In this document: positions 16,990-47,820 of the stretch, piece by piece
How positions within the stretch are numbered: position 1 is the first letter of the stretch
How the letters are laid out: each line of letters starts with the position of its first letter
Assembly: GCA_946699065.1 (NCBI GenBank)
Contig: CAMPDV010000227.1
Coordinates: 248,001-312,000 of the forward strand
Direction: 5' to 3'
DNA: 64,000 nucleotides
Source of the DNA: Loxodes magnus
Lineage: Eukaryota > Ciliophora > Karyorelictea > Loxodida > Loxodidae
Translations under genes and position numbers: made by a program
Notes under the pieces: model-generated
Database searches by the model: none
The model's input: the letters and a program-made list of their open reading frames with translations, nothing else
What the model was told of the DNA's origin: nothing

Positions 16990-17710
16990 ATTTGGTTAAT
17001 CACAAATAAAAAGATTAATGTTAAATAAAAGAAATTTCACATTTGCTTGGATTTTGTTTATCATAAGTCCTGAAGATTTTTAATTTGTTTTTTCTGAGAG
17101 TTTCCGATAGGTTGATTCCTATTAATTTTTATTGAATTTTTTAATTGCCTGCTGTATATTTGGAGCTTCTTTGCATAGTTGGAGTATTTTTCTCCGATAG
17201 AGTAACCTTCACTTGTGCAGTATATTCTAAATATATCTTAACATTTATTTTATATTAATCTCTTTTATTTATATTAAAATTGGTAGCAATTTCTTACTTA
17301 TTTCCTGAACGCTTGCAATGTCAGCATATCATTATTTTTCTAATCGGAATATATTTTGCCTCATGTTGCTATTCTATTTCCATTGGGTCATTTTGTATTT
17401 AGGACTTTTCATTCAAATATTTTAGAGTTTTTAATTTCTCTTATTTGTTCTGTCTGTAAAATTTTACCCTAAATTTGTTGCAAATACGGATTTAGAACTA
17501 ATTCCTATCATAGTGTTGAATTTCCATAGAGTTTAATAATTTATTAGTTCGTTGATAAAGATCTTTAATAGCATTTACTAATTCTTAATTCTCTATCTAA
17601 AGAAGGTAGAGATTATGGATACATATTGCTAAGTGTTATTAGAATTTGTAAGTAAATTCTGTTGTTTCTTATGTGCCATTTTTATAATTCCAGTTTGAAT
17701 AAAGTTCAAT
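16990..17710 (-). mobile_element. ORF1-only retroelement remnant, locus 17 kb
   Basis: The gag-like protein starts at ATG 17679 on the minus strand ('MAHKKQQNLLTNSN') and shifts frame early. It continues with a coiled coil ('QELVNAIKDLYQRTNKLL'), the family motif 'NDPMEIEQQ', and a zinc-knuckle remnant read as Cys-[TGA]-His-Cys-Lys-Arg-Ser-Gly-Asn, where the TGA is 17323-17321 and the knuckle histidine is now asparagine. After a further shift comes 'FRIYCTSEGYSIGEKYSNY', the conserved C-terminal block of the family. At least two frameshifts make it non-functional. Flanks are too diverged to define target duplications. Confidence 0.65.
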
Positions 17711-17989
17711 TTGACTTATTGAAAATCATAAATGCCAACTAGCAATACACCGAATATAAATCAATAAATAACTACAAACAAGTAAAGATGCTTTGCAATA
17801 TTTAGAAATAAAGTACAGGGATTCAGTCCTTTACATTAGAACTGGGCTACTTTCTTTATCTTGTTCAAAATTAAGAATCTACATAAGATTTAAAAATTAT
17901 TTTTAGAACTTGGTTCAGATAAGATTGCCAATATATAAGCCAAAGTGTAGAACTATAAGCAGATAAATGATTTAATATCTAGCTTCTCT

Positions 17990-19060
17990 TGACCGCTTTA
18001 GGAACCTCTTTATACTAAAAAGAAGAAAACCAATAAATGCCCTACGCTCAACTTAAAATTAACAATAAACTGATTTCGGTTATTGATAATAAATACTACA
18101 GACTACGCAAATAAGAATACCTTTCAGAATAGGAGCTCAAATTATTTATAAGCTACCTATTATAGAAAGACAAAAGAATGTAATAGGAAATCTTAACTCT
18201 TTTGAATTCTAGAATTTTTATATTAAAAATGAATATTCCATATTGCAAGCCATTTCTAATAGCATTGCTTTAGATAATGTTATAATTTATTTCCATAAAA
18301 GAGTACAACTATAAGGTTTTCATTGAAATATAATTAAGCTTAAAAAAGAAGGAAACAATTTACTATTTATAATACCTATTAAATCTAGAAGCATCATTAT
18401 GGAGAAATCGTAGATCTAAATAACTCTCGAGTAGATTATTTTTATTATTGTAATTATGATCATATTGAGTTTGAGGAATTTTATCCAGATATATATTCAA
18501 AAGTTTTAAAGGAATACAACTCATTCGCCAATAAACTAAACATAAATGTATAAAATATTTATCCTATAATTTTACCAGTTTATAAAGGACTGAAATTCTA
18601 AGCCATGTATTAGAATAATTAGAAAAGTTATATGGAATAAAGGGATCTGTTTTAATAATTTCTTAAGATGGAAACTTTGAGTAAGTTACTAGAATTATTA
18701 ACCCCTTAAAATAAAGAGGTATTTTAAATATAATACATATCTAACATCCTGAACTAAAAGTACTTAAATCTTATTAAAATCCTTAAAAAGTTAAAGAATT
18801 TAAATTAGCTTCTAATGCCTTTTTTTATTTAATATTACCTTTGAGTAATTAAAAGCAAAATCTGTTATCTATGGGTCAGATGATGTGTTTATGTCTTTAG
18901 ACTTTTATGAGTATGATAAATGAGTAAAAGCTTAATTTATTCATAATCCTTTATATGGTAAAAGAACTGGATTTATTTAACTAACAAATATAGCTAAAAA
19001 TGTGAGTCGATGGGGATAACTATTTTATTTTAGATTAGCCATTTACTGCTGGCATTCTTT
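17990..19060 (+). pseudogene. GnT-I (GT13)-like N-acetylglucosaminyltransferase pseudogene
   Basis: In the ciliate code the plus strand carries protein-like sequence in successive frames. From about 18410: 'YYCNYDHIEFEEFYPDIY' then 'NIYPIILPVYKG'. In the next frame: 'KGSVLIISQDGNFEQV' and 'ILNIIHIQHPE'. In another: 'KAKSVIYGSDDVFMSLDFYE'. This order matches the GnT-I/POMGNT1 catalytic fold: an I-P-V strand, then I-[IV]-S-Q-D-G/C, a V-x-H-I-x-[QH]-P strand, and the Mn-binding E-D-D loop followed by D-F-[FY]-E-Y. Here the first acidic residue is serine. Frameshifts (at least three) and in-frame TGAs show that it is dead. The region before 18400 may be the N-terminal part. Confidence 0.6.
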
Positions 19061-19074
19061 TTAACTTTGATTTG

Positions 19075-19800
19075 TATCATAATCGATGTGTACCATAACC
19101 TTTTATATAAATAGGAAATTTCCTATGTCGTCGCTAAAGTGTTTTTGCGAATATTTTCTATTTGCAGACCCCAGTTTTCATTATCCATATTTTATTAAGT
19201 TACCTCCATGTCCCTTCTGCTCTTATATATGCTTATTTTCCTTCGTTATCTACAATTCCTTAAATAATGAATATTTTATTAGCAATATCAGTAGAATTTA
19301 TTTTATTTTCTTTATTTCATTCTTTTTTATTTTTTATAATCTTAAAATAAAGTTCATATCAATCGTTTCTTTTTCTGTTTTTATTCTACTTTTGAGTGTA
19401 ATGTTATTTTTCTATTTTCATTTTTGTGTCTATTTAAAATTTATTGTTACTATGTTCTGAGTTGTTCTTCATTATCATTTGCTTTAAATGAGTTTTCTTC
19501 TAAATATCAAAATCTCATTGTTCAATCATCTATATTATTCATTAGTTCCCGTATTTATTCGCTTTAGTTATAAGTTGTTTCATTCTTTGAGATTGATTTA
19601 TACATTTTACCTAATTAAGCTTAAAATTTTCATCAGATTCATTCTTAAGTTATCTTATTTCTACAGATCCGATTATATTTTTACCTTCAGATGAAGAACT
19701 TGACTCCTTTAATTTCTATTGCTTTTCTTCATTTATTTCTACTTTTCTCCTTAATTTTTTAAGTTAGTTCTTTGAGAGGCCATCAGTTTATTCCATTTTT
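19075..19800 (-). mobile_element. ORF1-only retroelement remnant, locus 19 kb
   Basis: Minus strand from about 19795: 'GLSKNQLKKLRRKVEINEEK' followed by 'KESSSSEGKNIIGSVEI'. This aligns residue for residue with the element at 47.0 kb ('NLKRKAAKEI', 'EESSSSEGKVMVGQIEI'). The frame runs about 100 codons to a TGA. Downstream coding is scrambled and no clear zinc knuckle survives. The plus-strand open frame across 19086-19460 is a shadow of this. The element abuts the glycosyltransferase pseudogene to its left. Confidence 0.55.
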
Positions 19801-19804
19801 AATT

Positions 19805-21175
19805 GGCTATAAAGTAAATAGTAGGAAGCAATCGTTGCTTGTATTGATTGGTTTAAAATAGTTACCAATAGCCAATAAATGTAATTTCTTTTTAAAAATA
19901 TCATACAATAAACTCTCTAAAAATAATGTTTAAAAGTATCTAAAAAATCTATTACATTTTAGATATTAAACAATAATAAAAAATATAAAATTTATTATAA
20001 TATATAGATATTTAAATATAAAAGTTACATTTAAAGCTAGCTTTAATATTTATAATTCATATATAATAATTGGTAACTTTTAATCTAAGCAATAAATTAA
20101 TCTATTTAGATATCTAAAACATAAAGTATAATAGTAATTCTTAATTATTCTATATAAAAATAGATTTAAATAAATATTAAACATATCTATACCAAACATT
20201 CTATAGATTACCTTAAATTTTATATTTTACTTTTTAAATTTCAAAAAAGCTACTAATATAAGGATTTAGACTAAAATATTTATTTATTTATACATATTTC
20301 GTTATTTTAAACTTTAAAATAAAATGGAAAATATCCCTACTTTTAGCGATTCCATTTTTTAAAACTATATTCCTCTATCTGAAATTTGAAAAAAAATCAA
20401 GTTTTAAAAAGCTTAGAGAAAAAGAGGAAAGGAGATGATTACTATTTCTTACAAATAATTTATTAGTTTAAATTGATAAAAATTTTAAATACCATAATTC
20501 ATTTTATTTATACCTTCCTGTTTTTAATATTTTTAAATACTAAACTTTTTTAAATTTTTGTCATGAAAGATATAGAAAAATCTTTTTGTAGCTTATTTTT
20601 AATTAGAAAATATAATTTTTATCTCCTATTTTAAATAATGATTGAAAGTTATTAAAATTATTAATTATGCAACAGATGATTTTTATAAGAACTATTAACT
20701 AACTAAATAAAATCCTTTTTGTATTAGCTATTTTCATCTTTCATAAAATTATAAAATGATGAATTAATTATTATAATTTTAAAACTGATTTAGTTAATTT
20801 ATGCTATTAATTTAAATATTTTATATTAAGCTTATTTTAATCTATTTGAATCAAAAAATCATTAAAATTTAAATAAGAATGAAATATATAATTTATACTT
20901 AAATTTCTGATACTTATCAACTATTAAATATAATCCCTGTTGATAAAAAAGAAAAATACATGCAAAACTAATTTAAACATAAAATAAATAAAAATTAGTA
21001 AAAATGCTAATTAATAAAACTAGTCAATATATTTTATTATTTATTTATAAGTTATAAAAGAGAAAGAAATGTATCATAGGTGTAAAAAATAATATAAATG
21101 TGAAAGAAATTATTTTATTGATGTTTTTAAGATAAGAAGATATGAAAGTGATTATGGTTTCTTGAATAGAAATGT
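19805..21175. repeat. long diverged direct repeat R1, copy B (partner 4965-6520)
   Basis: Collinear with copy A for about 1.4 kb. Its last 150 bp and the following 100 bp are also found reverse-complemented at 25.1-25.35 kb, where the sequence continues without the retroelement present here at 21.3-22.1 kb. Confidence 0.6.
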
Positions 21176-21304
21176 ACTATATTTTTAGATATAGTAGTGA
21201 ATTTATCAATCATTAAATTATATTTTTATTAAATTTTTACGTTTGAGTTGTCAAATAAACAAGTGAGAACTAAATTTTAAGTTAATAATAAAAAAGAATA
21301 AAAT

Positions 21305-22145
21305 TAAGTTTATAGACTTAGAAAAGTTTCACAGTTAACTTCTATTTGTTCCCGTTCTTTCCTAAACTAAAGGATGTAGTAGGACTTCATTAGTCCGCCA
21401 TCTTTGTCTCTCCCCAAAAGCTATTTCTCCTTCTGGCTTATTTTTTCAGTTTTATTTTATTCGTTGATTCTCAAACTATAAAAATTTTTCTTTATATTTA
21501 TACTTTTCTTGTTGGTAAAATGCAGAAAAGTTCTTCTAATATTAATTTCTTTTATTATTTTCAATTTCTGTTTTCTTTCAACATTTGCTCAGTAGTTCTT
21601 CTAACATATGTAGCATCAGATATTTCTAGAATAGAAATTTATCTTGTTTGAATCTTTTATTGATATTCAGATTCGATTTCCATTAGAAAACTTGACTAAT
21701 AAAATTATTCTTTTTAAATTATACTTATTATTATTCTTACTTTTCTTAGAGTTCTTTTATTTGCTATTTAGAAAATTGAATTTAAAACATTTGCGTAACT
21801 TAATTGAATTATTTGTTAATCTCTTCCATTTTAATTACTATTTATGATTAGATCCTATTAAAAGTTTATTCCATAGATGGAAATTATAAATCTACTTATT
21901 CAGTCAGATTTTTTAGCATTTTTCAAGTTTTTTTATCCTTTATCTTGTTATTTTAATTCGTATTATATGATGCTTATTCGTTGTTACACCGATTATGATT
22001 ATGCTACTTAGAATATATTTCTTAAACTTATTTAAGCTATTATTCAGTTAGATTATATTATTATTCTTGTTCTTAACGATTGAGTCAAAAGAGGACTATT
22101 TCTTATATGCCATTTTATTAGATATTAATAATATTAAATTATTCT
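21305..22145 (-). mobile_element. ORF1-only retroelement inserted in a repeat, locus 21 kb
   Basis: The gag-like frame starts at ATG 21829 ('MEEINKQFNQVTQMF') with a glutamine-rich coiled coil and stays in one frame to about 21340, interrupted only by TGAs. One follows a cysteine ('LLSKC-[TGA]-KKTEIENN', TGA 21580-21578). The C-terminus 'KNKPEGEIAFGERQRW' matches the family's SPEG-type block. The inverted repeat at 24.99-25.35 kb is an empty-site paralogue, giving an insert of about 840 bp. The flanks 'AAAAAAGAATAAAATT' (21290) and 'AAAAAATGGAATAAATT' (22146) look like a degraded target duplication. Confidence 0.6.
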
Positions 22146-22489
22146 AAAAAATGGAATAAATTGAAAATAAAATTATAAAAATAAGATAAAATTTATTAAA
22201 TTAAATCGTTTTCTGATCAGAATACTATTTAGAAAAACTTTTAAAGAAGAAATTAAAAAAGTAAATAAAAAAGAAAAACTAAAGATTTAAAATTTAACCA
22301 AATAAAAGAAAAATAAATAAATTTTAAATTATTTAATACCTAATATTTTAAGAACATTTATTTAGCTTTAAAATTACTATTGGATTTTAAATGAATTATA
22401 AACTTTTGTAAGTAAAGGAGAATTTTTGCTGAAAAATAGATTTTTCAATAATAAATTTTCTATCATTAAGATTCTTAGTAAAAAGTGAG

Positions 22490-23260
22490 TTTTATAAGTA
22501 TGTAGAGTATGTAATTCTACATAATTACTTTTATTTAATATTTAGTATAATAAAGAAATAATAATATTAAGAATTTCTTTATATTTATAGTACTTAGCTT
22601 AAATACTCTAAAAATTTATTCTTAACAAAAAATATTTTTTTCTATATATAAAAGTTAATCACTTTCTAAAAAGTGAAACATTTCTAACTATCATCATAAT
22701 TTTAGATTATTTTAATAAACTTAAAGTCTCAAAAAGTTTTAAAAATACAGCCAAATCTAAAGCAAAATGAGTCTAATTTATGAAGAATAACTATAAATTA
22801 TTAATATATAAACATAATAATTTTAAAGTATTATGATAGTACTTGTAATTTATTTTCAAATATTAATCTATCTATTTAAAATAATTTTAATAAGTTTAGA
22901 TTAATTTTTTATTTTTAAGTAAATTAAAATAATTATCATTTTATATATTTCGCAATTATACTAATAATTTAAACGATATAGATCATTTTTTATTATTCTC
23001 AATTTCATAATATTTATAGATAAAACCTTTAAAAAGTCTCTAAGATAATTCATGCTTTTTTACAGGAAAGTTAAAAACCATAAGAACTAACTTTTTCTAC
23101 TAAAAGAGTTCTAAACAAAATGGGTTCAAAAATAATACTTAAGTTAATATTGTGAAATATACTCGGATAAATGTTTGAAAGGAACTCTATAAAAATCTGG
23201 AATAAATAAATTATACAACTTAATTTAAGGTGATAACTTGAAACCTAAAGTCATTCTAAA
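22490..23260. repeat. repeat R2, inverted copy
   Basis: Reverse complement of 12060-12790, e.g. 'TATAGTACTTAGCTTAAATA' near 22587 against its complement at 12640, and 'GTGAAATATACTCGGATAAA' near 23151 against its complement near 12353. Together with the copy at 11.6 kb it forms an inverted pair 10 kb apart. Confidence 0.65.
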
Positions 23261-24099
23261 TAAATGCCTTTCATCGAAGTGAATTCGTATATTTACACTA
23301 AAAACTTTTGCTTAAATGAGTCTTTTTTTCTTTTAAGAATATAGATAAACATTTTAAAAACATTTGAGATAAATTTCTAAGTTCTTCCTATTATTAGTTC
23401 AATTTTTCTTAATTATTAGAAAATTAAAATATTCTAAGATATTTTTATAAGCTAAGCTTGAAATTAAACTTAATTAGAATTTTAAATTGTTTAAAAATAA
23501 GCAGTTAAAAGCTAGCTATGTCAAAGTATTTATATAACAATCCTTAAATTTTTTTTAATTTATAGGGAAAATAAAGTTTAGTATTAAAGTCTAAATATAA
23601 CTATGAATAATCTTATAATTATTTGTGAAATAACTTAGTTATCTTTATTTTTTCAATTTACATTCTCTTTTTAACTTTTTCTTATTTACATTATTTAGTA
23701 TCTAGATTTTAAATAACTAGTAAAGTTTTAATTTAACTATTTGTAATCCTTTCCGATTTTTAAATAATCTATTTTGTTTTATTTTTCTTCTTTTTGACCT
23801 TTAGAAGATGATAAAATATCGAATTAAGTAAAACCTTTAATTTTGATAGTAAACTTAATAAAAATACCTATTAAAAAAATATTTCATCCAGTTTTTTATT
23901 TCCATTTACTATATAAAAGAATAAAAATACAGAATTAAAGATAATTTATAAAAAATAAATATTTCATTCAAAATTATAAAAACTAAGAGCATCCCTTAAA
24001 AAATCAATTCCATTTCGTTATATTCCAATATCCGAAATACCAATATCAAGATAAAAATAAAACGAATGATAAACGATAATATTACTAGTTAAAGATATG

Positions 24100-25470: not shown

Positions 25471-25479
25471 AATTTGGTA

Positions 25480-28286: not shown

Positions 28287-29606
28287 CATTAAATTAAATT
28301 AAAAAATAAATATTAGCTTAAAAGCTTTCAAGTCTATGGTTCTCATTCATTTCTTATTTTCAGTTTTCTAAGGTTTTTTTCTACTTAAAAATATTTATCG
28401 AATAAATTTTCTATTTCCTTGTTATCTTGATTCTTTCAATGCATATTTTCTGAATGTAGTATTTCTTAAAATTTTATTATTGTCTTGTTTTTGAACTAAA
28501 TTTAACTTCAACTTTATTTTACTATTTTATCTATTTCTTCAATTTGATTTTTATTATTCTTTGTTATTTTGTTAATTTAAATTTGATTATATTCTAAATA
28601 TTCTCTTATGTTAGTATTGCTTATTTGATTTTGTTTTTAATTTTTTTTAATATAATTTTTAATTTTTTTTCTATTTATAATATTTCTTCATAGTAGTATT
28701 TACAATCAAATATATGTTTATATATCTCTTCCTTTTTGTAAATACATTAAATTTCTTATTATATAATATTTCTACTATTTAAATCGCCTCTGAATGATAA
28801 TAATTAAGTTCTTAGTTTGAAAATTATTTTTTGTTGCTTAATTTTATGTTTGTTTTTAATCGTGTAAGTAATTTTTGGTAAATATAATTCATTTTAAAAT
28901 TACTTATACACTATTTATGCTTTTTTTAATCCTTTTTTATTACTTTCCTCATCCGTTCTTATCCTTTCTATGGTATTTTAAAAGAATTTCATTTTTACTT
29001 TTTTCATAATAAAATCATTATACATAGAAAAGTTTTTTTCTTTAATTTAATCAATTTCCAGCGTCGAAATATCATAAAACTTTAGCATTTTTTGAAGGTT
29101 TTTTTTGTAAGAAGATTTTTTCTTTTAGCTAGATTCGAATAATTGTATAAATTAAGAATCTTATCTCATTCTACTTTGATTTATTTAGGTTCTATATTAT
29201 TCATATAATTTTTTATAAAATTTAGAGTATCTTAACGCTGTCATTTATTCAAATTATAGTCAATTAAAATCTATATGTTATAGTTCATCTCAGGAGGATT
29301 GTGTTATTTTCATAAATTTTCTTATTACTTATCTTTAAGTTGTGTGAATTCTATTTTTAATTTATATTATTCCTGGCAATATGCTATAAGGTATTATTTC
29401 AGAGCAATATTCAAGTTTCGGTAAACAGAAGAGCCTATACAAATTTTTAAAATTAATTGGGTAAGTTTTTTAGAATTTCTTATAGAACTGAGCTTAAAAT
29501 AAAAAAGTTGTTTTTTAGAATTTGTTATACATTTCTAGTAAATGGCTTTTTAGCAGTTATTTTTCATTTATAGAAATCCCAAATAAATAACTTCTTATTT
29601 TTATTA
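28287..29606 (-). mobile_element. 5'-truncated LINE (non-LTR retrotransposon) inserted in an ORF1-only element
   Basis: About 1.32 kb bounded by perfect 15-bp duplications, so this is a genuine insertion. On the minus strand it carries the C-terminal portion of ORF2 and then a short 3' end, 'TTGAAAGCTTTTAAGCTAAT', followed by an A/T-rich tail with 'TTTTTTAATTTAATTTAATG'. That 3' end resembles 'TTGAAAGCCCAAAAAAAGCT' of the ORF1-only element at 40.1 kb. The region upstream of 29260 is coding-like but out of frame. The 5' end lacks ORF1 and the reverse transcriptase core, as in typical 5'-truncated LINE copies. Confidence 0.75.
28360..29259 (-). CDS. LINE ORF2 C-terminal segment
   Basis: An uninterrupted 299-codon frame in the ciliate code, ending at TGA 28362-28360. 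It is rich in Lys, Ile and Gln. About halfway it has 'IQCIYKKEEIYKHIFDC' followed by KYYYEE, equivalent to the C-x-C...HIFDC-x-YY zinc-like motif of the remnant at 10.8 kb. Here one of the leading cysteines appears replaced (Tyr). The frame opens after a TGA at 29262-29260, so it is not a natural start. Being open over 900 bp suggests a recent insertion, but without the polymerase domain it cannot act alone. Confidence 0.6.
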
Positions 29607-29621
29607 AAAATTGAACAAATT
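29607..29621. repeat. target site duplication, right
   Basis: AAAATTGAACAAATT, identical to 28272-28286, at the right junction of the LINE insertion. Confidence 0.85.
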
Positions 29622-29775
29622 GAAATAAAATTTTATTAATTAGCGAGTTGACTGAAAGTTTACTTCTTAAAATATATCATCGAAAGAATCCAAAGAACAT
29701 GGAACCGAATGCTCAACCAGCTAAAATTTCTCTACTAAAGAGAAGAAATAATGTTGATATTGCAGGAAATGCATT
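29607..29775 (+). mobile_element. ORF1-only retroelement, 3' part after the LINE
   Basis: Continues the element broken at 28286 and matches the reverse complement of 31925-32090 almost perfectly until about 29770. It includes the start of the zinc knuckle read as Cys-[TGA]-Tyr-Cys (TGA at 29755-29757). The match to the sister then stops abruptly inside the knuckle, so the distal third has been lost or replaced by AT-rich DNA. Confidence 0.7.
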
Positions 29776-30639
29776 TTTTTATTTTAATTAAATTATATAT
29801 ATCTTTAAGCTGTAGGTATCTTTGCATTCCCTAAAAGAAATTTTTATAAAAATTTTTCTTTAACTCATAGAATAATAAACTAATTAAAATATTTTGATTT
29901 ATGAAGCCTTCAATATCAATTTTATATAATTTAAGGCTTTTATTTATGTATTCCACACATTGTAAACTGTATTATTTACATATAGAAAAAAAAACTATAT
30001 CAAAATTCAGATTTTTTCTACTTATTTATCCTAATTTACAATAAAAGCACATTAATTTTATTATTGCTATACGTATAGATGGAAGTCAAATAAGATCATT
30101 GAAGCTGATTCATTGAATGTTGATTAAGGAGATTTATGTGTTAAAAATAAAAAAACTCCTCATCTGACTTTCCTTTCTGTAAGGGGTAATATTTACTATT
30201 CTTGTAAAAAAATAATAATTATAAAATTTTAAATTTTTTAAGATTGATCTAATTTATTGTATTATCCTATTCTAGGCAATAATTAGAGCTAATACCTCAA
30301 ATAAAATAAATAGTTAGAAATTTTTTAAATAATAATTTAAACAAGAAGAATAATTTTATTATTTAAAGTAATAAGTATATTAGTTAGTTTAGTTTCAATA
30401 TATCTTTTAATTCTTTTTACTCATTGAATCATTTTTTTCCCGAGTTTCCCTACGATTCCAATAGTCAGGGGATTCTTGATTATCATTTAATTTAAATTAA
30501 TGGTGATTGCCTACATTGTGCTTACACTAGTTGTATCTTAGATAGTTGATTTATGAACTTTCTTTAGAAGATTTACAAAATTAATATTTATGTATTATAA
30601 GCTTCCAATTGCCAATCCATAAAAAATTTTATATTTTTT

Positions 30640-31485
30640 GACATAGCCTAATTTAATATATTAACATTTTAATGATATATATTTTACTAAAATTTATAAT
30701 TGCGACTAACTCTGGATTTTCATCTGGTGCCTATATACAAATTTTTTTGCGTGGTTGCATTCTATAAATCTTTATTTGATAATGGAAGGTTACTACTTTG
30801 TGTTTCCATATAGCATAATGGAAATTTTTACTTTTATATAACATTTTCCATTATTCAAAGTTGATTTAGTTTGATTCAAGTTCTAAGTTGTTCTTTTTCA
30901 TTTAACTATCTCAATTTTAAGTAGTTTCGAAGAAAATGTTACCAATTATTACAATATCAGCATTTTTTACTGTAAGTATTATTAAGTGATGGATTGGAAA
31001 TAATTTTTTCTATTTTTGTAATCCCTATTCAAATTTTAAATCACCAATTTAAGATTGTGCTTTCTATTCTTTCTAAAATTAAAGTTAAATATTTTAAATT
31101 TCCACAATTTAAATTCTTTTTGTTTACTATTGAGATTTTAGTCATAGTTGTTGATGGATTACAAACTTATTTTAGATTAATTGCATTTTAAGACTATCCA
31201 TCTTGTTATTATTCTCATTAATGTTAACGCTTAATTCGCATATTTGATGACTTTAGATGCAAATTGCCTCTTCTTGCTGTTTAATTATTCTTTTCAAGTC
31301 CTCAGTTATTTTTTATATTTCTGTGGGAAATTCTGTAATATCTTTTTCTGTTTCGACAATACCTGTCATAACTTTACCTTATGATTCTGAACTAGAACTT
31401 TCTTGCTTCTTTTCGGTTTTATGTAGTTCTATAACTGCTATCTCCTAGCCTTCCTAATAGCTTTTTTGAGAGTCTAATGTTCTAC
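30640..31485 (-). mobile_element. ORF1-only retroelement, locus 31 kb
   Basis: The 5' end 'GACTCTCAAAAAAGCTATTA' (31476 downward) matches the 5' end at 47.0 kb. The gag-like protein reads 'KTEKKQESSSSESQGKVM', then a coiled coil ('EDLKRIIKQQEEA'), and after one TGA stays in frame for about 75 more codons. The knuckle lies in a shifted frame: 'NNTYSKKC-[TGA]-YCNNWQHFLRNY', with TGA 30959-30957 and the last cysteine now tyrosine. The plus-strand open frames at 30994-31191 and 31257-31448 are shadows of this gene. Confidence 0.65.
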
Positions 31486-31564
31486 TCCATATTTTATTCT
31501 TCTATTTTATTAAAATTTTAATGATTTATACTATTTAATTAATTAATTCAAGCTATACAAACAT

Positions 31565-32320
31565 AATAATAACGAATTATAGTGATTCCACCTGTATTAG
31601 GTTCATCATTACTTTAAAGTTTATATTTTGTTCAAATATTAAATTTCCAACCTTCTTCTTTGAATGCAAATCTGTCACTACAGTGCCAACCTTTTTAATT
31701 ATAAGTATCTTGCTTCAGTCAAGTTCGTTTTCAATCGTATTTCGATTCCTTCTTTATTGAGGAAGGCGATGCTCATCAAGATTTAATTTCGCTTTTACAT
31801 CTTTTTGAATATATTAGTCCTTCTAAAATACAGTATAGACTACTTAATGACTGCCATAACTTGAGAATTTCTAATTCTTATTACTGTTAGAATCTTCAGC
31901 ATTATCTTAAAATGTGTCCATATTTCCTGCAATATCAACATTATTTCTTCTCTTTAGTAGAGAAATTTTAGCTGGTTGAGCATTCGGTTCCATGTTCTTT
32001 GGATTCTTTCGATGATATATTTTAAGAAGTAAGCTTTCAGCCAACTCGCTAATTAATAAAATTTTATTTCAATTTGTTCAATTTTGAACTTATCTGACTA
32101 TGAATTTTCGTTTTTGGATTTAAGGTGTTTAAAATAAGTTTCTAATTTTTTCCTTCAATTTCTTGTACTTTGCATTAAAGCTTATCATTTAATTTTACAC
32201 TTTTTGAAGTTCTTGATAGGTTTTTTGTTTATCACTATTTAATAGAGAATTATCCTTTTTCTAAGAAGATTTTGCAAGAAATTGTCCATTTTATTTATGC
32301 ATATATATTAATAATTTACC
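31565..32320 (-). mobile_element. ORF1-only retroelement, uninterrupted sister of the 28-29.8 kb copy
   Basis: Minus strand. The coiled-coil frame ('LNDKLQCKVQEIEGKNQ') continues to 'KKQC-[TGA]-YCRKYGHILRQC-[TGA]', a complete C-x2-C-x4-H-x4-C knuckle with TGA at 31937-31935 and again right after the last cysteine at 31898-31896. A second frame through the same DNA ('KISLLKRRNNVDIAGNMD') is also open. The 3' end 'GGTGGAATCACTATAAT' followed by TTATTATTATG matches ends at 36.5 and 44.5 kb, defining a second 3'-end type. The insertion site used by the LINE in its sister is intact here. Confidence 0.65.
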
Positions 32321-32329
32321 CTTCGGCCC

Positions 32330-35930: not shown

Positions 35931-36510
35931 TAGATACAAGCTAAAAATATACAAATTGAATTAATGGAGCAGAAATTAAAATAAATCAAAGAAATACCAA
36001 AAAGTTTGCTTTTTAGAATGCAGTCTTTCAACAATCCAATGGACACTGAACTAAAGATCGAACTAGCAATAAATTATTCACCAAAAAGAATAAGAAAATG
36101 CTGATTTTGATATAGATCTTAACATTTTGGGAGATAAAATCAAAAATTCTTAAAGAAACAAGAAATTAAAAGCTTGAAATAATGATAAAAACTCAACAAA
36201 TTATTCATTATACCGTAATAAAAAATATTTAGAAAAGAGATATTGGTCAGAAGGGATGTACCACAGATCTTTATATAGAACCAAGAAAAAGATTTAAGTA
36301 AATATTTAGTAACAGGTTTGGTTTAAATAAAAGTACTATTATAAAGAAAGGAGAAAAGAATGACAGTTGCTTTGTTATAATCTAGCATAGGAATGAGGAA
36401 GATCTTAAGGCCTATTAGAAACAAAATTTTTTTTGAAACTCTAAAACTCTAATACAATGATGAACTTAATTGAAAATGGTATCACTATAATTTATTATTA
36501 TTATATAATT
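35930..36510 (+). mobile_element. ORF1-only retroelement, 5'-truncated, locus 36 kb
   Basis: The frame starts near 35952 with 'MEQKLKQIKEIPKSLLF', then the family motif 'NNPMDTELK' and a knuckle 'KRIRKC-[TGA]-F-[TGA]-YRSQHFGRQN'. The first TGA (36102-36104) is at the recurrent position. The second (36108-36110) replaces the second cysteine, and the last cysteine is Asn. In another frame a basic tail follows ('YRNKKYLEKRYWSEGMYH'), similar to the 61.6 kb copy. The 3' end 'GGTATCACTATAATTTATTA' with a TTA tail matches the 31.6 kb type. Confidence 0.65.
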
Positions 36511-36539
36511 TAGATTAAATTGGGTAGACCTTACCTTTT

Positions 36540-37790: not shown

Positions 37791-37799
37791 TTAGTAGAT

Positions 37800-38240: not shown

Positions 38241-40030
38241 CGTTACCTGAATTAATTTAAGATTAGAAATAAAATATCATTAACAAATTTTGAATATCTG
38301 CCTAAATTTTTAATTACTATAAGTAATTATTTTTTCTAATAAGCATTAGTTCTAAAAGAAGCTTAAAATATTTATGATTAAATTTTAGCTAATTAATTAG
38401 CTTTTTGTTTGCATGCATTTAGCTATTCCTATTTATTTTATAAGTAGGATATTAATTGCTATATTTCTAAATCATAATTCAGATTAATTATAGATGGTTC
38501 TGAAGCATTTTCTTTCTCATTTTATAAAATGTTTACATTTCGATTATTTTAGCTATTATAAATTATTTAATTTGTAATAAACATCCATAATAGGAGGATT
38601 ATAAAAATAAAATGAAACATTAGTTTTAAAGTATACAATAATTTTCTTATTTGATTAATACTGAACTTAGTAGAAAAAATCTATAGATTTGATAAAAATA
38701 GATAGTTAAGTAGCATTAATGTATATAAGAGGATTATAATTAAGTAAATACCTAATAAAATTTAGCTAGTAAAGTAAATATTTATTGATTTATATGAAAG
38801 CTTTAGTGATATTCAATTGTATATTATGCTATTACGCTATTTAATTACTTAATTTAAACCATTTTATTTTTTAATCTGTTTTATTTAAGGTAGGAAAAGT
38901 AAAAATATTGAAATATTATTAATTATCTTACTTTTGTAAGTTAATATTCTTTATAATAGTAAATAAGGTTTAAAATTTAAAGAGACTAAAAATTTAAATT
39001 TTACTGTCATAGAATATTTAAGAAGTAATGTCACAAAATCTTTAAAAGTTCAAATTTATAAACATTTATATAAATTTAGATTTATTTAAAGAAAAACACT
39101 AAGCTGAAGTAAATATTTAGATATATTTATGAACTACACCCAAATCTAAATTATTTTTAATATTGAACTGGCTTAGTCAAATATCTTATTTCATTAAATG
39201 AGAATAAATTATTTAAACTGTTAAATAATTTAGGTATTTTAGATAAGTATATAAAATATTATATACCTATTTTAAATTAATTAAATCAAAATTAGTTATA
39301 TTTTATTTTATATTTTAGACACTAATTTATATTCTACATTTAAAATGATTAAATATTTAGAAAATCTCTAAATTATAGGAATTTTAATTTGTAAAATAAT
39401 AATTAAAAATTATAAAGAGATAGTTAATGGAGATTAGGTTACGTATGCTAAAAATAAAAAATTTATATTTTTTTAATTTATTTAAAAATTGGAGAACTTT
39501 AAAATAATCATTAAAGGAAATAAAATTGTAAAGCAAAATGAATAATAGAAAAAATTATTTAAATCTTTAATTTAAATAAGTGAAAACCCTTAATTTAAAT
39601 TTATAAAAATAAGACTTAAAATTTATTTATAACTGATGATTAGATATTCTTATAAATAAGTAATTATAATATTAAAATTCAAGTAAAATAGAATTGAATT
39701 AAATTCTATACAAAGATATTGAAATTAAAAAATTTATTCAATATTTTTTATATTTGCAGCTTTATAAAAAATTAGTTATAATAATAGTCTAGAGACTAAT
39801 TGATTTAATTATTAAACTTAAGCTTTATAACCATTATTGCTTTTAATATCTATTTACTAAAACCATTTATAGATTACTCTATTAATTTGAAAAAGTTTAA
39901 AATAATATAAATTAAAGACTATTGTATATTGGAGAAATATTTTAGACAAAAAGCTAATTTTTAGTAAAATAAATAAAAATTTAATAATTAAAAATTATGC
40001 GATTGTAACAAGATTTACTTTCTATTTGTA
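38240..40030. other. very AT-rich stretch without recognisable genes
   Basis: Mostly mononucleotide-like A/T DNA. No credible frame, RNA or element end was found. Confidence 0.4.
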
Positions 40031-40880
40031 ATATAAATTGATAATATAATAATTATTATAATATACTTAAAAATTTAAGTTTTAGCTTTTTTTGGGCTTT
40101 CAACCAGATACCTGCTAGAATTTTTTTAAGTGGAAAGCCTTTTTTATATGAGTTAGGTTACTGCTAATAATTTTCTTCATTTCTTAATTAAATTTTCTAT
40201 TTAAAAACTATATTTTCAGTTATTCAGAGTTCGCTATTAATCTATCATGTTCTTAATTATTCTTTTAACAAAAAAAGTTATTTTCAAGAACAACATTGCC
40301 GTAAAACATGATTAATTAAATAGCAGTATCAGCAGTTTTTGGCATATTTTCTGGATTTGTATCATAAAACACTTTCATTCCAATTTGTCTGTTCTCTTTT
40401 GTAAATTAGATTCATTTTTTCCTTCTGGTTTCTACTTAATCGATTAATTTAATTAAGTCTCTTTTTATAATCACGTCTTTTTAATTGAAAAACTATCGGT
40501 TGTGATTGCTCATAAAGATACTATTCTGTAACTAAGTTATTTTAGATTAGCTGATGAAGTAGTATTAATAACTCATTATTTTAGTCGTCAATATGTTCAC
40601 TAATTCTCTGATATTTAACTCTTAATTGGGATTATTTCTTCATATTTTTAGATTAGTTTTTACATTCAGTCTAGTTCATTTTATATTTTTTTTGGTCAAT
40701 TTCATTTTAAGATTTCTCTATCTCTTAGGTTCCTATACCTTCTAATGAAGAACTTGATTCCTCATATTTCTATTGCTTTTTCTCCATTTCTTTAATCGTT
40801 TTTCTTCTTTAGTTTCTAATTAAATTCTTCGAGGGACGAACAGATTATCTATTTTTTCATAATATGCTAGTATTTAAATT
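40030..40880 (-). mobile_element. ORF1-only retroelement, locus 40 kb
   Basis: From about 40868 on the minus strand a single frame runs for nearly 200 codons interrupted only by TGAs: 'NLIRNQRRKTIKEMEKK', 'KYEESSSSLEGIGTQEIEKS', a long coiled coil ('DDQNNELLILLHQLIQNN'), then 'TNWNESVL-[TGA]-YKSRKYAKNC-[TGA]-YCYLINHVLRQCCS'. The last part is a full C-x2-C-x4-H-x4-C knuckle with TGA 40331-40329 after its first cysteine. The 3' end 'GGTTGAAAGCCC' and 'TTTAAGTATATTATAATAAT' matches the 47.8 kb element. No frameshift is needed up to the knuckle. Confidence 0.7.
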
Positions 40881-41729
40881 TAAATACTATTTTATTAAAA
40901 ATAATTAAAAAAAATAGGATTTCTTTAAAATAAAAATGTATCAAAATTGCACAATTTTTAAAAGAAAGAATGAACTATAAGAATCCTTATTAAAAATAAT
41001 ATAAACTTAATATAAAAGAAATAAATAATTAAATATTATATAAATTTAACTATAGTAATAGAAATTAAAATTTTTAGTTATATAATCTAATTTTTTAACT
41101 CTGCTTTTGAACAAGTTATTTTTATAGATTTGAAGGAATTATATAAAATTATGATTGATTCTTATGCAATCAGAATTCGATTAGATAAAAATGGATAAAA
41201 TAAAAGAAAGTGGTAATACTAAGCAAACTGATTATGCTAAGTATAATATTTATTTTTCAGAAATTGTTTTAAAATAAGTTTCTTGAATATTTTAAGTATC
41301 TTAATTTAGATTTGAAACTCTTTACAATATGATTATATTAAAAATTTAGAAAGATTTCTCAAACATAAGAAATAGGAAGAAGGTTAATAGAACACAAAAC
41401 AAATTAAAATAAATTAATATTATAGTAGTAATTAATTTTAAACGAAAGGGATTTTAGCCTATAAATATTTAATAAACTAAAGATTTTCACTTCAAAATAA
41501 TAGACTATAAAGCAAATTAGAGACTAATAAAAAATGTACATTTGATCTCGTGATTACTAATGAATAATATAGATTATTTTAAATTAATATTAAATATTTA
41601 AAGTATATTTAATATCAAACAATTACAAAATCTTATTATTTTTCCATCATTCTATCCTTGAAACTTTTGCTTTTTTACATTATTTAAATTAACAAAATTT
41701 ATTTTATAAATTTTCAACTTTAGTCAAAA

Positions 41730-43060
41730 TTGTCATAATAACTAAAATAATTAAAATAGAAATATTAAAAATAGACACTACAGAATATAGTCTAAAAATT
41801 AAAAGTTTATTTTCCATATATAGATAAAACTATTAGTAAGATATAAGCTAGATTAGCTAATATATCAATCAAAATACTAAAATATTTTTAATTTTACTTT
41901 TTCTTATTTCTAATAGTAAATATAATAAATATATAAAAAGCTATATTATAATAAAGAATTATTTAAAGAAATAATCAATAATAAGGATATAGAAGCATTA
42001 ACAAAACATATCCTAAATTAATATAAGAATAAAAAAACAGATATATATGTTTAAAAATATTATTATAAAAGATACTTAAATAATATATAAATTCATTAAA
42101 AAAATAAACCATTTTTAATTATTTTTTAAACATTTAATGAACGTATAGTCTATAGGTAGAAGCTCTAATTTCAAGATTTAATTAACCTTAAAAGAGTAAA
42201 GCACTGGGTACATTTAATAAATTACTATTAAAAAAAGGGATGGTTTATTATTAAATCCTAAGGAATTCTTTAGTTTAGGAGAATACAGATACAAGATTTG
42301 GTACCTGTCAAGTCTTATCTTAAATCTTGTAGCTTAATTCAAATTTTACTTAAACTCTTCGAATTATCACCTTAAAATTAATTTTGTACGATTTATTTAT
42401 CCCAGACTTTTCGATCCTCGCAATCATTTTACTCAAACACATTTCACACTATTAACTTCATCATATTGCTGAACTAAGTTAGCTAAGTTCTTTTTTACTA
42501 GACTAACTATGTTACTATGTTTTTTAATCTTTCTTTAGAAAGCATAAATTAACTTAGAAAATCTTATAAAGTTTTTTCTATAAGATAATGAAATGACGAT
42601 AATAAGAGCCTAATGATTTTATATGATGATTATAATTACAATATAATGTGGTAATAATTTGAATTTACTTAACAATAAATCTAAACTTAATAGATGATAA
42701 ATAATTAGAAAATAAATTATAAATACTATCAGAATACTTTAAAATAATTGTACTTAGATATTAATAATTTATAGTTAATACTCATAATTTTATTGCTTTT
42801 AATTGATAGAATTATTTTAGCTTTTTGAATCTACTTATTAGATAATCTAAAATTATAGTTAATGTAGAAAATGTTTAACTTTTTAGAAAATGATATACTT
42901 TTATACATCAAAATAAATATAATTGATTTAAAGAAGAAAATATACAAGATTAGTACTATAAATATCAAGAATTTCTTAATATTTATTATTTCTTTATTAT
43001 ACGTAAAATTAAATTAAAACACTTATTATTTAAAATTACTTACTAAATCATAAAGCTACA
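41730..43060. repeat. repeat R2, copy 4 (direct partner 11600-12790)
   Basis: Collinear with the first copy for about 1.2 kb, including 'CTAATTTCAAGATTTAATTA' and 'CACTGGGT', and ending in 'TTTCTTTATTATAC'. Internal deletions differ between copies. Confidence 0.65.
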
Positions 43061-43329
43061 GTTATATTAACTAAAAACTACCTAAACTAAAATTTAGAAC
43101 TTCTGTTAAGAACATCAAATAGTATTCTAATTAATATCTTCTAAACATCATTAAATTATATGTAATACCTGCTTAATAACTAATCACAATCATGAGTTTT
43201 AGCTAATTTAGAAAAAAATAACAACCTTACAGAAGGAAAATAGATCAAGATTCAATAATTATGTTTCTTCCATAAGTATATTTCCCATGTTTTTCCTACA
43301 ATTAATTACTTACTTTTTCTGTTTTATCT

Positions 43330-44440
43330 ACCAAATGTCTGCTAAATTGATCAAATTTGCTAGCAAAGTTACTGATATCCTCATTATTTTCTTCTTCCTT
43401 TCTGTTGCTCCTTTGTTCAAGATCCTAGGTATTAAAAAGTAATGAGGCTTTGAATGTACTATCACAATCTCAAAGCTAATTATCTGACACATTTTCAAAG
43501 CTTTCAATACTCTTTTTTCTCTTATAACTCTTCTTAATTAACCAAAGTACTTTACTTAAGACAGAGAAAGCTTTTCTAGATTAGCTGAAGGAACTGTAAG
43601 AATCTTGATAGGTAGGGATTATTCTAAAGGACTAAGGGTATCTAAAGTCTCAAAGATTATTGGAGAGTTACTAATGCTCATTTAGAACGTGAATTTAATA
43701 TCAAAGAGAGTGATACTAGAGTTATCGTAACCCTTGAGTATCGAAATACATACTGACTAGTAATTAGAAATAGTTAATCAACGTTAAAAGGAATTTAGGA
43801 GGTGATTCAGCTATAAGTTTCTGATGGGATTTAAAAACTAGAAATTAGAGTCCAGTAAGTAGAATATCTAACTACTGATTCTTAGAACCTAAAAGTTATA
43901 AAATAAAGATACAAATATTAGAGGTTCAAATTTAATACTTTGGAACTGTAATTTTTGACCTAGAGAAAAAGAGAAATTTCTATCATAGAGGATAAGTGGA
44001 TTGTATCTTTATTAGTTACTTAATTCTTTATACTATTTATTATAAACTTAGGATATTTAATATTTCAAATCATTTTATGTCTTACTATTACTTAAATAAA
44101 ACTATACCATTACTATTCATAAGAGAAGCTACTTTATATGCTAATTACCTTATTTAAGAAAGCTCTATGAAGAAGGATGAGAATATTTGCGGATGAGAAT
44201 AAGCCTATTAATTACAAGTGGAGAGAGGAATACGAAATTGTCTATGTAACGGAAGAAAAGTGTTTTAAAGTCATTAGATAACTAGATGGTACTATCTAAT
44301 AATTCTAGATCAGAGGAGTAATACATATAGATAGAAAACTTAGTAGCAGACTCAGATGAAACCATATTGGAGGTCATAAACAGTTAGTTATTTATATTGG
44401 AGTTAAGCAAATAAAACAATTTTATCTTTAAATTATTTTC
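43330..44440 (+). pseudogene. decayed multi-frame coding region, unidentified
   Basis: Plus strand carries a chain of protein-like blocks in changing frames: 'FSRLAEGTVRILIGRDYSKG' then 'LRVSKVSKIIGELLMLIQN' (43560-43800), a 180-codon stretch with one TGA including 'DYWRVTNAHLEREFNIKES', and finally ATG 44177 'MRIFADENKPINYKWREEYE' then 'EKCFKVIRQLDGTIQQF' to a TGA near 44353. After that TGA the same frame continues 'NHIGGHKQLVIYIGVKQI'. I recognise no domain. It faces the retroelement at 44.45 kb tail to tail. Confidence 0.35.
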
Positions 44441-44449
44441 TAATATATC

Positions 44450-45310
44450 ATTGAACAATAACATAACATAACATAATTTATTAAAGTGACTTCACCTTTA
44501 TTTGGTTTGCCACTAATTAGTTTATAAGTTTTAAGATGTAAATGAATCGTTCATGTCTTCTTCAGAGCTTGCTTCTTCTATTGCATATCGTGTTGTACAG
44601 ATTTAACTTTTCTTGATCTTAGGAATTTTTCTTCAATCTCAATTAGGTCCCAACATCTTCCTCGTCCTTCTTTTTTGAGCATTTACTATATCCAATAGTA
44701 ATTAATCTCCACTGTATAATTTTTTCTTGTAAACTCTTCCTTCTGGAGAGCAGTATAATTTTGTCATACTATTTCCTATCTATCAATTATTAGATTCTTG
44801 CTTCTTCTGAAAATACCAGCATCTTCTAAAGATGTGTCCTACTTTTTAGCAATAAAAACATCTTGTTTTACAATATTTCGAGTTATGTCCTATTTTTAAG
44901 CATTCTTAGCATTTTTGGAATTTTTGGAATTTTAAAAAATTGACAATTTTTTTCGATCCGAAAAAGAATTTAAATTTGCTCTTCTATTACCATAGGATCA
45001 TTATTAAGATTACAATTGTATGTTTTATTAATTTCTACTATTTTTTGCTCCGTTTTTCCAGTTTTTTATTACCTTGCAACATCAAGGCTTTAGTGCTTAT
45101 TTCCGTTTTTAGCATTAATTTTCGTTTTATAATTATTGCACAGTAAAAGTTAGAGAATCTAATCGTTAAATCAAGTCTAGAAGTGATTGTTGCATTTTTT
45201 GTTTTTCTCTTCTAGGGAGTATATTTCGATTAGAGAGTTTCAATTTTTCGATTTTCTGCTAGTTTTTAGTCGATTATTTCTTAGGAGTCATTTTATTTTT
45301 CATATATATA
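44450..45310 (-). mobile_element. ORF1-only retroelement with two intact zinc knuckles, locus 45 kb
   Basis: Minus strand from ATG near 45296: 'MTPKKQSTKNQQKIEKLKL', then a coiled coil. After a shift comes the family motif 'NNDPMVIEEQI'. In another frame follow two consecutive CCHC knuckles, 'KCQECLKIGHNSKYC' and 'RCFYCQKVGHIFRRCW', both complete. Then comes 'MTKLYCSPEGRVYKKKLY', the clearest form of the C-terminal block. It ends with 'GGCAAACCAAATAAAGGTGA' and a TTATG pentamer run (44461-44475). Two frameshifts and a TGA (in 'ESNN-[TGA]-QIGNS') indicate decay, but the nucleic-acid-binding domain is intact. Confidence 0.7.
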
Positions 45311-45558
45311 GTAAGTAGTATATTATTTGACTTTGAATAAGCATTTAAATGTGTTCTAATAGTTATACTTGATTTAGCTATTCTGCTTTACCTATTTTAT
45401 AATTGTTTTTTGAAGCCATTTGAAGAGCAATCTTTCCTCAGTGGTTTAAAGAATTGGTTCAATCTATTAATTGCTGCTCTTATCTAATCGTAGTTATTTA
45501 CTGTTAATCTTAAACTAACCTAACACATTTTATATTTTCTCCTTAGATTTAAATATGA

Positions 45559-45945
45559 TAAAACCAAGAATTGATCATACAGGATATAAATGCTACTAAT
45601 AAATTAACTATTTAAACACGGAAGCAAAAATTTAGTTTTAAAGATGATAATTTGTTAGATCTATTTAGTACAAGGTGTCAAATCAATCGAAAGATAAGAT
45701 CTTTGACAACATTATTCTTAAAATTTTAACAATCACAAACAAATTACTTTATCTGCTTATCATTAGTACTTTTTCAACTTCTGCTATATTAACCATTTCT
45801 ACCTTAAATTAAACGTTTTAGCGACAAATCATCCAAATAAGCAATTCATTACATTTCATATACAAGTTAACTATTCTATTTCAAAATCATGAATCACTTC
45901 AGCTTTTTTCCTTAATCATTATGTGAGCCATTTATTTAATTCTGA
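45559..45945 (+). CDS. open frame, hypothetical
   Basis: 128 codons between TGAs in the ciliate code, including 'QELIIQDINATNKL' and 'KDDNLLDLFSTRCQINRKI'. The second half turns hydrophobic. There is no start codon at the open end and no homologue in the window, so it may be a fragment or chance. Confidence 0.2.
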
Positions 45946-46014
45946 TGGGATTTCGGTCAAAACTAACCTTAAATCATGTATACTATATTTTTAAAGAACT
46001 CTAGAACAAAATTG

Positions 46015-46295
46015 GAGGACTTGCTCTCCAGTGGGCTCTCGCTAACACTTTTACGTTGTGATAATTCCAACCACCGAGACGAAGTCCGGTGTTGTTATTT
46101 CTTTTCACTATCTCTCTTAGTAAGGATTAGATAATTTGTGCGCCTACTGCCTTCTTTAATGTTGAGATGTGGTAGCCATCTCTCAGATTTTCTCTCCAGA
46201 ATCGAACCCTAATTCTCCGTTATCCGTCACTGCCATGATTGTCCAATACACTACAATCGAAAGCTGATAGGGAATAAACTTGAATGACCTGCCAT
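46015..46295 (-). rRNA. small-subunit (18S) rRNA gene fragment, diverged
   Basis: On the minus strand the sequence follows the 5' domain of eukaryotic SSU rRNA in order: 'CATTCAAGTTTATTCCC', 'CTATCAGCTTTCGATTGTAG', 'TGTATTGGACAATCATGGCA', 'GGATAACGGAGAATTAGGGT', 'TCGATTCTGGAGAG', 'GGCTACCACATCT', 'AAGGCAGTAGGCGC', 'AAGAAATAACAACACCGG', and finally 'TGGAGAGCAAGTC'. This corresponds to roughly positions 250-540 of the molecule. Many substitutions occur at universally conserved positions (e.g. GGCAGCAGGCGCG has become GGCAGTAGGCGCA), so it is a pseudogene fragment. The B-box-like 'GGTTCGATTC' inside it is part of the rRNA and not a tRNA. Confidence 0.85.
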
Positions 46296-46990
46296 ACTCC
46301 CCAGTATGATTTTCATGTATTATAATTCCCACACAGACGATATCTAATAAACATCTTGCATGTTTTAGCTCTTTAAATTAATTATCCTTTTTATAATTAT
46401 CTATAGTGTGATGTTCTACCCAATTATTACTACTATTTCAACCAATCAAATATAATAACACTAATCCCTTTTAAATAATTACCATTATTATTTTCAATCA
46501 CTTCTATATATTCAAAACACTATTATTCAGTTATTAATCATTTTACATTCACTTATTATTTTAACATTCGATTTATCACTATTGTACACATATCAAATCT
46601 ATGCTTTCTGGAGTTCTTAACTTAATCTGCTGAAGAATTCCAGATTAACTCTAGCTTTCCCTGCTGAGAAGAGATTTCCTCTAGAAGTTAAATTTCAAAA
46701 CTATAAATGTTGATTTGTTAGTTATTTCTGCTTCTTTCCTTACAGAATTGCTATTTATTACTATACTCTTCTATAATCCAAATCACTTCAAACTACATAC
46801 TTATTCCCAATTTTAGGTTCCAACAACATTTCCTCAATAATTAATCCTTAAACCTTAAGTGACTTAACTGCTTTTAATCAAAGTAATACCTACCTCATTC
46901 TTATGATACCTTACTAAATTGTAGCGGCTAAGCCATTTTAAAAATATTAACCGCAAATACTTAATCACAAGGTATAGATATTCTATTATA
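46296..46990. other. C/T-skewed stretch without recognisable genes
   Basis: The plus strand has far more C than G, a skew also seen at 50.9-51.95 kb. No coherent protein was found on either strand. Confidence 0.3.
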
Positions 46991-47003
46991 ACATCTAGAC
47001 ACA
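46991..47003. repeat. target site duplication, left (ACATCTAGACACA)
   Basis: Identical to 47821-47833 and immediately followed by the conserved 5' end of the retroelement. Confidence 0.8.
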
Positions 47004-47820
47004 CTTCGACTCTCAAAAAATTAACTTAGAAACCTAAAGAGAAAAGCGGCAAAAGAAATTTAGAAAAAATAATAACAATAGGAGGAGTCAAGCTCTTCTT
47101 CAGAAGGTAAAGTTATGGTAGGATAAATAGAGATAAGTTAACCTAAAAACGAAACTAATCAAAAACTTTAAATTTAATTAGACCAAATGTAAAAAGTAAT
47201 CTCAAATTATGAAGAAACAACTTACAACTTAGGCGAAAAAATACGGGAACTAATGAGTAATATAGAAGATTAGAACAACGAATTACTAATACTTAGAAGA
47301 TAACTTATTTGTAGCAAATTAATAACGGAAGAATAACTCTGAACTTAATCATAATAAAATTTTAAATATGACACAAAAATGGAAATAGAAAAAATACCAA
47401 TAGAATTAAAAACAGAATTGAATCCAGAAAAAGAAATGATTGATACAAGTTTCATTAAAAGATTAGAAAATATAGAAAATAAATTATCATAAAAAAGAAC
47501 GAAATAAAGACAATAATACAAACTTTGTTGATGTTGCAAATCAAATCAACATATTTTAAAAAACTGTTGATAGTGAAAGAAAATAAACGAATAAGAGCAG
47601 AAAAGAACATGGAGACAACTCAATAAACTATGAATAACTCCAACAGGGATCTACAAATAAAAGCTTTTTGCAAGACCACTTGAACGGTTACAGTGGTAAC
47701 CTTCCACTTAATAAAAAGGTCGTGGATCACGCCCACGTTAAAAAAGCTGTCCGCAGGAACTGGTTGCAATTCCAGAGAATGCAAAACTCTACTAACTTTA
47801 AGTATATTATTATTATTATT
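47004..47820 (+). mobile_element. complete ORF1-only retroelement with target duplication, locus 47 kb
   Basis: 817 bp between perfect 13-bp repeats, with a 3' tail 'TATATTATTATTATTATT' as in non-LTR elements. The 5' end is 'CTTCGACTCTCAAAAAATTA'. Coding (plus): 'RNLKRKAAKEIQKK', 'QEESSSSEGKVMVGQIEI', a coiled coil ('YEETTYNLGEKIRELMSN') to a TGA at 47340-47342. The same frame continues with 'KYDTKMEIEKIPIELKTEL' and the knuckle 'KLC-[TGA]-CCKSNQHILKNC-[TGA]' (TGAs 47529-47531 and 47568-47570). A GC-rich 3' region (47690-47790) with complementary segments follows. There is no room for ORF2, so the unit must be moved by another element's enzyme. Confidence 0.8.

Follow-up and report, generated by a model that had tools for sequence, protein, structure and literature searches.

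The window analysed here, a stretch of 64,000 nucleotides from the ciliate Loxodes magnus with a G+C content of 22%, contains several copies of short gag-only elements, whose gag-like open reading frame (ORF) includes a CCHC zinc knuckle; the codon directly behind the first knuckle cysteine, hereafter the site, is repeatedly TGA (Table 1). L. magnus is placed in Karyorelictea, and excerpts of the Loxodes genome paper (PMC11441545) state that karyorelicts use code table 27, where UGA is the sole stop and is also read as Trp at a sufficient distance from the poly(A) tail. An earlier note on this DNA had called TGA the only stop in this code, which is true of the code and omits the second meaning of TGA, and it had favoured a recoding site that gives short and long gag forms. 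A 15-mer chromosome-breakage pattern was absent.

The earlier note had listed six independent loci with TGA at the site, a sister pair being counted once, and we indeed read TGA at all seven positions, each behind a Cys codon. The list was incomplete, since it missed the 19 kb copy, which shares 73.7% identity with the 47 kb copy. The knuckle (CX2CX4HX4C) is intact in the 32, 40 and 47 kb copies; the 31 kb copy has lost the last Cys and the 36 kb copy two Cys, the 30 kb copy ends beyond the second Cys, and the His and last Cys of the 17 kb copy are unrecognisable. Matches to a knuckle profile include the 30, 31, 32, 36, 40 and 47 kb copies and not the 17 kb copy, whose case is thus supported by its C-TGA-H-C sequence and the NDPMEIE stretch upstream. 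At 21580-21578(-), proposed as a possible further case, Cys-TGA is present with no knuckle behind it, and we do not count it. TGA behind the last knuckle Cys, reported for two copies, was confirmed in the 47 and 32 kb copies, and the 44.9 kb copy has TGG there; in that two-knuckle copy the site sits in the second knuckle. The TGA of the 61.6 kb copy, said to lie nine codons ahead of the knuckle, actually lies seven codons before the first Cys.

Table 1. Gag-only copies and codons of interest (positions within the window).
Feature	Position	Strand	Remark
Site TGA of a probable gag copy, strongly decayed	17321..17323	-	Weakest case; C-TGA-H-C, NDPMEIE upstream
Older gag-only copy, related to the 47 kb element	19098..19778	-	Site TGA 19290-19288
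Partial sister of the 32 kb copy	29604..29770	+	98% identity; site TGA 29755-29757
Related gag-only copy, aligned stretch	30561..31487	-	Approximate ends; site TGA 30959-30957
Knuckle part, second gag family	31713..32003	-	Site TGA 31937-31935; TGA behind last Cys
Knuckle part of decayed gag copy	36036..36314	+	Site TGA 36102-36104
Related gag-only copy, aligned stretch	39961..40875	-	Approximate ends; site TGA 40331-40329
Two-knuckle gag copy	44641..44923	-	Site TTT (Phe), 44857-44855; TGG behind last Cys
Target-site duplication ACATCTAGACACA, left copy	46991..47003	+	Element flanked by an exact 13-bp direct repeat
Gag-only retroelement copy, young abundant family	47004..47820	+	5'-truncated by 12 nt (lacks ATG GAT TAA TCT)
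In-frame TGA, codon 117 of full-length ORF	47340..47342	+	TGA in 28, CGA in 1 of 29 covering loci
Site TGA, codon 180, taken as Trp	47529..47531	+	TGA in 30/30 fetched loci, window's own included
TGA behind last knuckle Cys (47568-47570); second TGA two codons later (47574-47576)	47568..47576	+	Each in 30/30 loci
Trp codon TGG	47610..47612	+	TGA in 40 and 31 kb copies (four-copy alignment)
TGA codon 214, last in-frame TGA of the element	47631..47633	+	TGG in 19 kb copy
Target-site duplication, right copy	47821..47833	+	Immediately behind the (TAT)n tail
Gag copy	61984..62244	+	Site TTT 62050-62052; TGA 62026-62028

The 47 kb copy is a non-degenerate, truncated member of a young family whose unit measures about 0.83 kb. 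A search with its knuckle piece gave 9807 candidates, among which 150 were scored, with four TGAs per 97 codons in every match, and the 30 best were fetched: the window copy, 2 partial and 27 full-length copies. Among the 29 other fetched copies, 27 align across 47004 to 47819-47824 with an identity of 93.0-99.9%; the flanks of the family's loci (L173-L202) differ between copies. All 27 other full-length copies have an ATG 12 nt upstream of the start of the window copy; their 5' start reads ATGGATTAATCT in 26 and ATGTATTAATCT in one, mostly directly behind an A-rich leader. Repeats of 11-18 bp flank 24 of these 27 copies, a number taken without a chance control and including some low-complexity repeats and some duplicate loci. 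When TGA was read as Trp, the ORF from the 5' ATG stayed in frame near the 3' end in 23 copies and failed this test in 4; in 22 of the 23, TGA stands at codons 117, 180 (the site), 193, 195 and 214, and the remaining one lacks only that at codon 117. Because these young, near-identical copies carry TGA, the amplified source itself carries it, and under code 27 no special device is needed to account for it. The option of a master copy already carrying TGA is therefore borne out by the 30 fetched loci. By the same token, independent TGG to TGA decay in dead copies, an explanation that accords with the frameshifts or lost Cys codons of some copies, is excluded for the 47 kb family.

In the second gag family, that of the 32 kb copy, and its relatives, the unit is about 0.7 kb long; as longer stretches are common within groups, we infer its ends from matches between groups. 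Each unit holds a single gag-like ORF; its CCHC knuckle has an aromatic second residue and is followed by a conserved stretch ending in IYK or IYRK. The equivalent knuckle position of the HIV nucleocapsid is Phe or Trp. Three simple patterns for reverse transcriptase (RT) and endonuclease had no match in, or up to 1.5 kb on either side of, 30 loci of families other than the young one (L001-L030), and Pfam found neither domain in the downstream reads of L006, L008 and L019 (three frames) and L025 (one frame). The target-site duplications with a tail at the 3' end, seen in the young family, and the lack of an RT or endonuclease of their own in the loci scanned agree with non-autonomous ORF1-only elements without long terminal repeats. 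The mammalian HAL1-type derivatives of long interspersed nuclear elements (LINEs) share with the Loxodes elements the short size, an ORF1-like CCHC protein, the direct repeats and the lack of RT and endonuclease found nearby; the Loxodes elements differ by their (TAT)n tail and an ATG at the extreme 5' end. Many LINEs with RT and endonuclease are reported for the Loxodes genome in excerpts of PMC11441545, and these could mobilise the gag-only elements in trans. At the 3' ends of the second gag family (about 1880-1960 in L002, L003, L007 and L008, less well kept in L019 and L025) we also observed GTGAT...ACC...GGT...ATCAC followed by ATTATT repeats, which by eye looks like a hairpin plus tail.

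We then looked at the 19, 31, 40 and 47 kb copies, which form the DNA-alignable set of the window. The site codon is TGA in all four, despite a difference of about 26% of sites between the 47 and 19 kb copies, and this recurrence of TGA exceeds chance. TGA is also shared at further columns of their alignment, and two of these alternate with TGG: column 47610 reads TGG in two copies, the 47 kb one among them, and TGA in the other two, at 40 and 31 kb, and column 47631 reads TGG in the 19 kb copy and TGA in the other three. No column of this alignment holds both TGA and TAG, though TAG faces TGG at two poorly conserved columns, 47472 and 47694; TGA faces non-Trp codons once each at 47184 and 47490. 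In window repeat pairs taken as neutral, TGG lay opposite TGA 10 times, TAA 9 times and TAG 8 times among 98 aligned TGG triplets (counted in both directions and on both strands). Plain decay would thus have left TAG as well.

Codon conservation in these copies was measured by a permutation test preserving base-to-base counts, the knuckle frame being compared with the other two. Upstream of the TGA, the knuckle frame gave z values of 3.7-4.2 for the pairs 47k/40k, 47k/31k, 19k/40k and 40k/31k, and only 1.7 and 1.9 for 47k/19k and 19k/31k. Downstream of it, codons were conserved in four of the six pairs (3.9 for 47k/40k, 3.3 for 47k/31k, 3.2 for 19k/31k and 4.4 for 40k/31k), and the other two frames did not exceed 1.6 on either side in any pair, or 1.3 downstream when a substitution score was used. 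Conservation appears to continue slightly beyond codon 214 (z of 3.0, 1.1 and 2.1); in the tail the knuckle frame stays at or below 1.7 and another frame reaches 2.4 in one pair. From their sequences, the window copies by themselves already pointed to a probable sense codon. This frame-specific conservation on both sides of the TGA among older copies, the 5' ATG of the 27 other full-length copies of the young family and the maintenance of the CCHC knuckle across families all argue against the elements being untranslated RNAs, similar to short interspersed nuclear elements, in which an in-frame TGA would be irrelevant. Such RNAs would fit a young family without an in-frame terminal stop and the RT- and endonuclease-free surroundings of the 30 loci scanned, and we regard them as very unlikely.

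The knuckle codons were next compared across the genome. The 32 kb knuckle piece used as query gave 7392 first-look candidates, from which 150 copies were scored and all fetched; removal of 37 codon-identical ones left 113 distinct copies, which are still mutually related. The site codon (n=112) was TGG in 57 copies, TGA in 33, TTT in 6, CTG in 4, TAA in 3, TAG in none and another codon in 9. At the third Trp column (n=113) we counted TGG 58, TGA 46, TAG 2 and other codons 7, and behind the last knuckle Cys (n=113) TGA 84, TAA 11, TGG 10, TAG 0 and others 8. Since the query has W at the Trp columns, and TGA, TAA and TAG were scored alike as stops, this selection favours TGG and does not favour TGA over TAG. 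Among TGA-bearing pairs that differ at 30-60% of bases, codons downstream of the site were kept beyond chance (median z of 3.1 and 3.6), less so in closer pairs.

These counts bear directly on a dedicated readthrough site at the knuckle. A programmed site is expected to keep its stop and to exclude sense codons; the young family alone would suit this, with TGA in 30/30 loci, as would the TGA of the older 19, 31 and 40 kb copies. However, TGG is the most frequent site codon among the related copies (57/112), and TGA also stands at four other codons of the ORF and at Trp positions of actin genes (see below). The favoured proposal of the earlier note consequently fails by the refuting observation that the note itself had named, and we hold such a site to be highly improbable. 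Excerpts on the Candida albicans retroelement Tca2 (PMC2194720) describe UGA readthrough between gag and pol, and there too a UGA lies in the gag region of a retroelement; in Tca2 it divides gag from pol, whereas no pol turned up in the Loxodes elements, whose codon alternates with TGG. The same alternation within one column, and the several TGAs per ORF, speak against selenocysteine, although UGA doubles as a selenocysteine codon in Condylostoma and a karyorelict according to excerpts of PMC4967479; the chance of selenocysteine at the TGA is practically negligible.

Changes at the three Trp columns were followed on a parsimony tree built without these columns (midpoint root, ties resolved to TGG), on which the directions of change are rough. 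TGG to TGA occurred 9 times at the site, 2 behind the last Cys and 5 at the third column (16 in total), the reverse change 2, 1 and 4 times (7 in total), and TGG to TAG only twice, both at the third column. A ratio of 16 to 2, compared with 10 to 8 in the repeats taken as neutral, is hardly what independent decay would produce, and as the general source of the TGAs decay is exceedingly improbable; it is a possible source in single decayed copies such as those at 17 and 36 kb.

As indicated above, Trp positions of host genes also carry TGA. We examined 16 divergent actin loci out of the 96 matches listed, chosen mostly because TGA was listed for them, so that the counts are no estimate of usage. 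They contain 21 aligned TGAs, 10 of which, from seven loci, coincide with the four conserved Trp positions (two each in L097, L102 and L103, one each in L098, L104, L107 and L112). L097, L098, L102 and L103 are full-length actin frames with 67-74% identity to the main actin; L102 and L103 adjoin closely and may represent one duplication. Over the four Trp positions (n=59) we counted TGG 30, TGA 10 and other codons 19. Full-length actin frames also hold several TAG and TAA codons, indicating that UAA and UAG are sense. In-frame UAA and UAG as sense codons, together with UGA where host genes and the gag ORF have Trp, are as in karyorelict code table 27 (Loxodes, Parduczia), and we found no difference from it in the use of UAA/UAG and of in-gene UGA. 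Dozens of full-length actin genes with nearly equal scores, many of them on few contigs (C266, C437, C524, C707, C711, C1162, C1812 and others), may form an array or repeat. The share of TGA in TGG plus TGA is 163/288 at the three gag Trp columns and 10/40 in the chosen actins; AT-biased change in repeats may explain the higher value in gag.

Since the genome appears to read TGA as Trp within genes, the repeated knuckle TGA is most likely an ordinary codon. Excerpts of PMC4967479 report that ribosome profiling and mass spectrometry demonstrated translation of UGA as Trp in Condylostoma, and that a karyorelict was predicted to do likewise. In the nuclear code of L. magnus, UGA would be Trp inside genes and stop near the mRNA 3' end; the gag-only elements would encode a basic protein with Trp or Phe as second residue of its CCHC knuckle, and this Trp would be spelled TGA in some families and TGG in others. 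From the sequence comparisons, we infer with near certainty that the site TGA is such an ordinary Trp codon of the known ambiguous code, translated as Trp in the element. The option of a Trp reading of TGA in this element thus named the right amino acid; given the actin TGAs at Trp positions, this reading is a property of the whole genome and is specific neither to the element nor to the codon. Altogether, the earlier interpretation is partly supported.

Several observations weigh against this ordinary Trp codon. In actin, 11 of the 21 TGAs lie off Trp: five (L099, L100, L101, L105 and L106) share one Phe position and probably belong to one gene group, this position being three codons from a Trp position that reads TTT in those genes, and six are scattered (two each in L097 and L107, one each in L108 and L112); no TGA was seen in main actins among the matches listed. 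Selecting the genomic copies for protein similarity to a W-bearing query gives an advantage to those with TGG and inflates the median z values of their TGA-bearing pairs. Behind the last knuckle Cys, TAA matches TGG in frequency (11 and 10). TGA occurs without TGG at column 75 (TGA 35, TAA 6, TGG 0; n=51), at column 94 (CGA 15, TGA 10, TGG 0; n=29) and at the second knuckle Cys (TGA 11, TGG 0; n=113), the last being also a point in favour of decay. In the four-copy alignment the downstream z is just 1.7 for 47k/19k and 1.5 for 19k/40k; and between codon 117 and the site (47343-47528) z is 0.9-1.7 with other frames equally high, giving no clear frame preference. Finally, the young family has no in-frame TGA between codon 214 and the 3' end, about 188 nt (window 47634-47820; L173-L202). 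We considered column 75 as a true stop; the protein likeness between copies downstream of it tends to speak against this.

In the young family the next in-frame TGA falls 31 to 1426 nt beyond the element end, in flanking DNA. Loxodes 3' untranslated regions are short (mean 53 nt in excerpts of PMC11441545), so that codon 214 would be an unusually early stop, or else the ORF lacks its own stop. One might imagine that the family exploits the ambiguous code, UGAs at graded distances acting partly as stop and partly as Trp to yield nested gag products with or without the knuckle or C-terminus; on the sequence patterns described, we think this quite unlikely.

Reading the site as an ordinary Trp codon removes an apparent recoding anomaly, and it means that ORFs of repeats in the Loxodes genome need to be read with code 27, as live elements otherwise appear dead. 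Recent retroposition in Loxodes may be marked by the short gag-only families, of which one is young and abundant; the families also supply many natural TGA/TGG pairs for the study of an ambiguous code. The reading of UGA as Trp is already published, and the elements themselves are new examples of a known element type. A limited literature search turned up no Loxodes genome paper besides PMC11441545, a statement that holds for that search and claims no wider absence.

Some minor features of the window remain to be listed. Pfam was applied to 20 ORFs and four long read-through stretches of the window. In the gene at 62438-63955(+), beside the 61.6 kb gag copy, it detected a B-box and, below threshold, a RING; one other match also stayed below threshold. 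Neither this B-box gene nor the gag piece had relatives in protein databases at the cut-offs used. A RING domain also lies downstream of the gag copy in L019 (about 3070-3150); its proximity to gag at both places is possibly a coincidence or a segmental copy. Three RT- or endonuclease-like motif matches in the window, which had no supporting context, were taken as chance. The window also contains other repeat pairs of unassigned kind, at 11659-12589/41760-42655, 4989-5926/19809-20768, 12282-12818/23236-22443 and 28040-28302/32317-32053.

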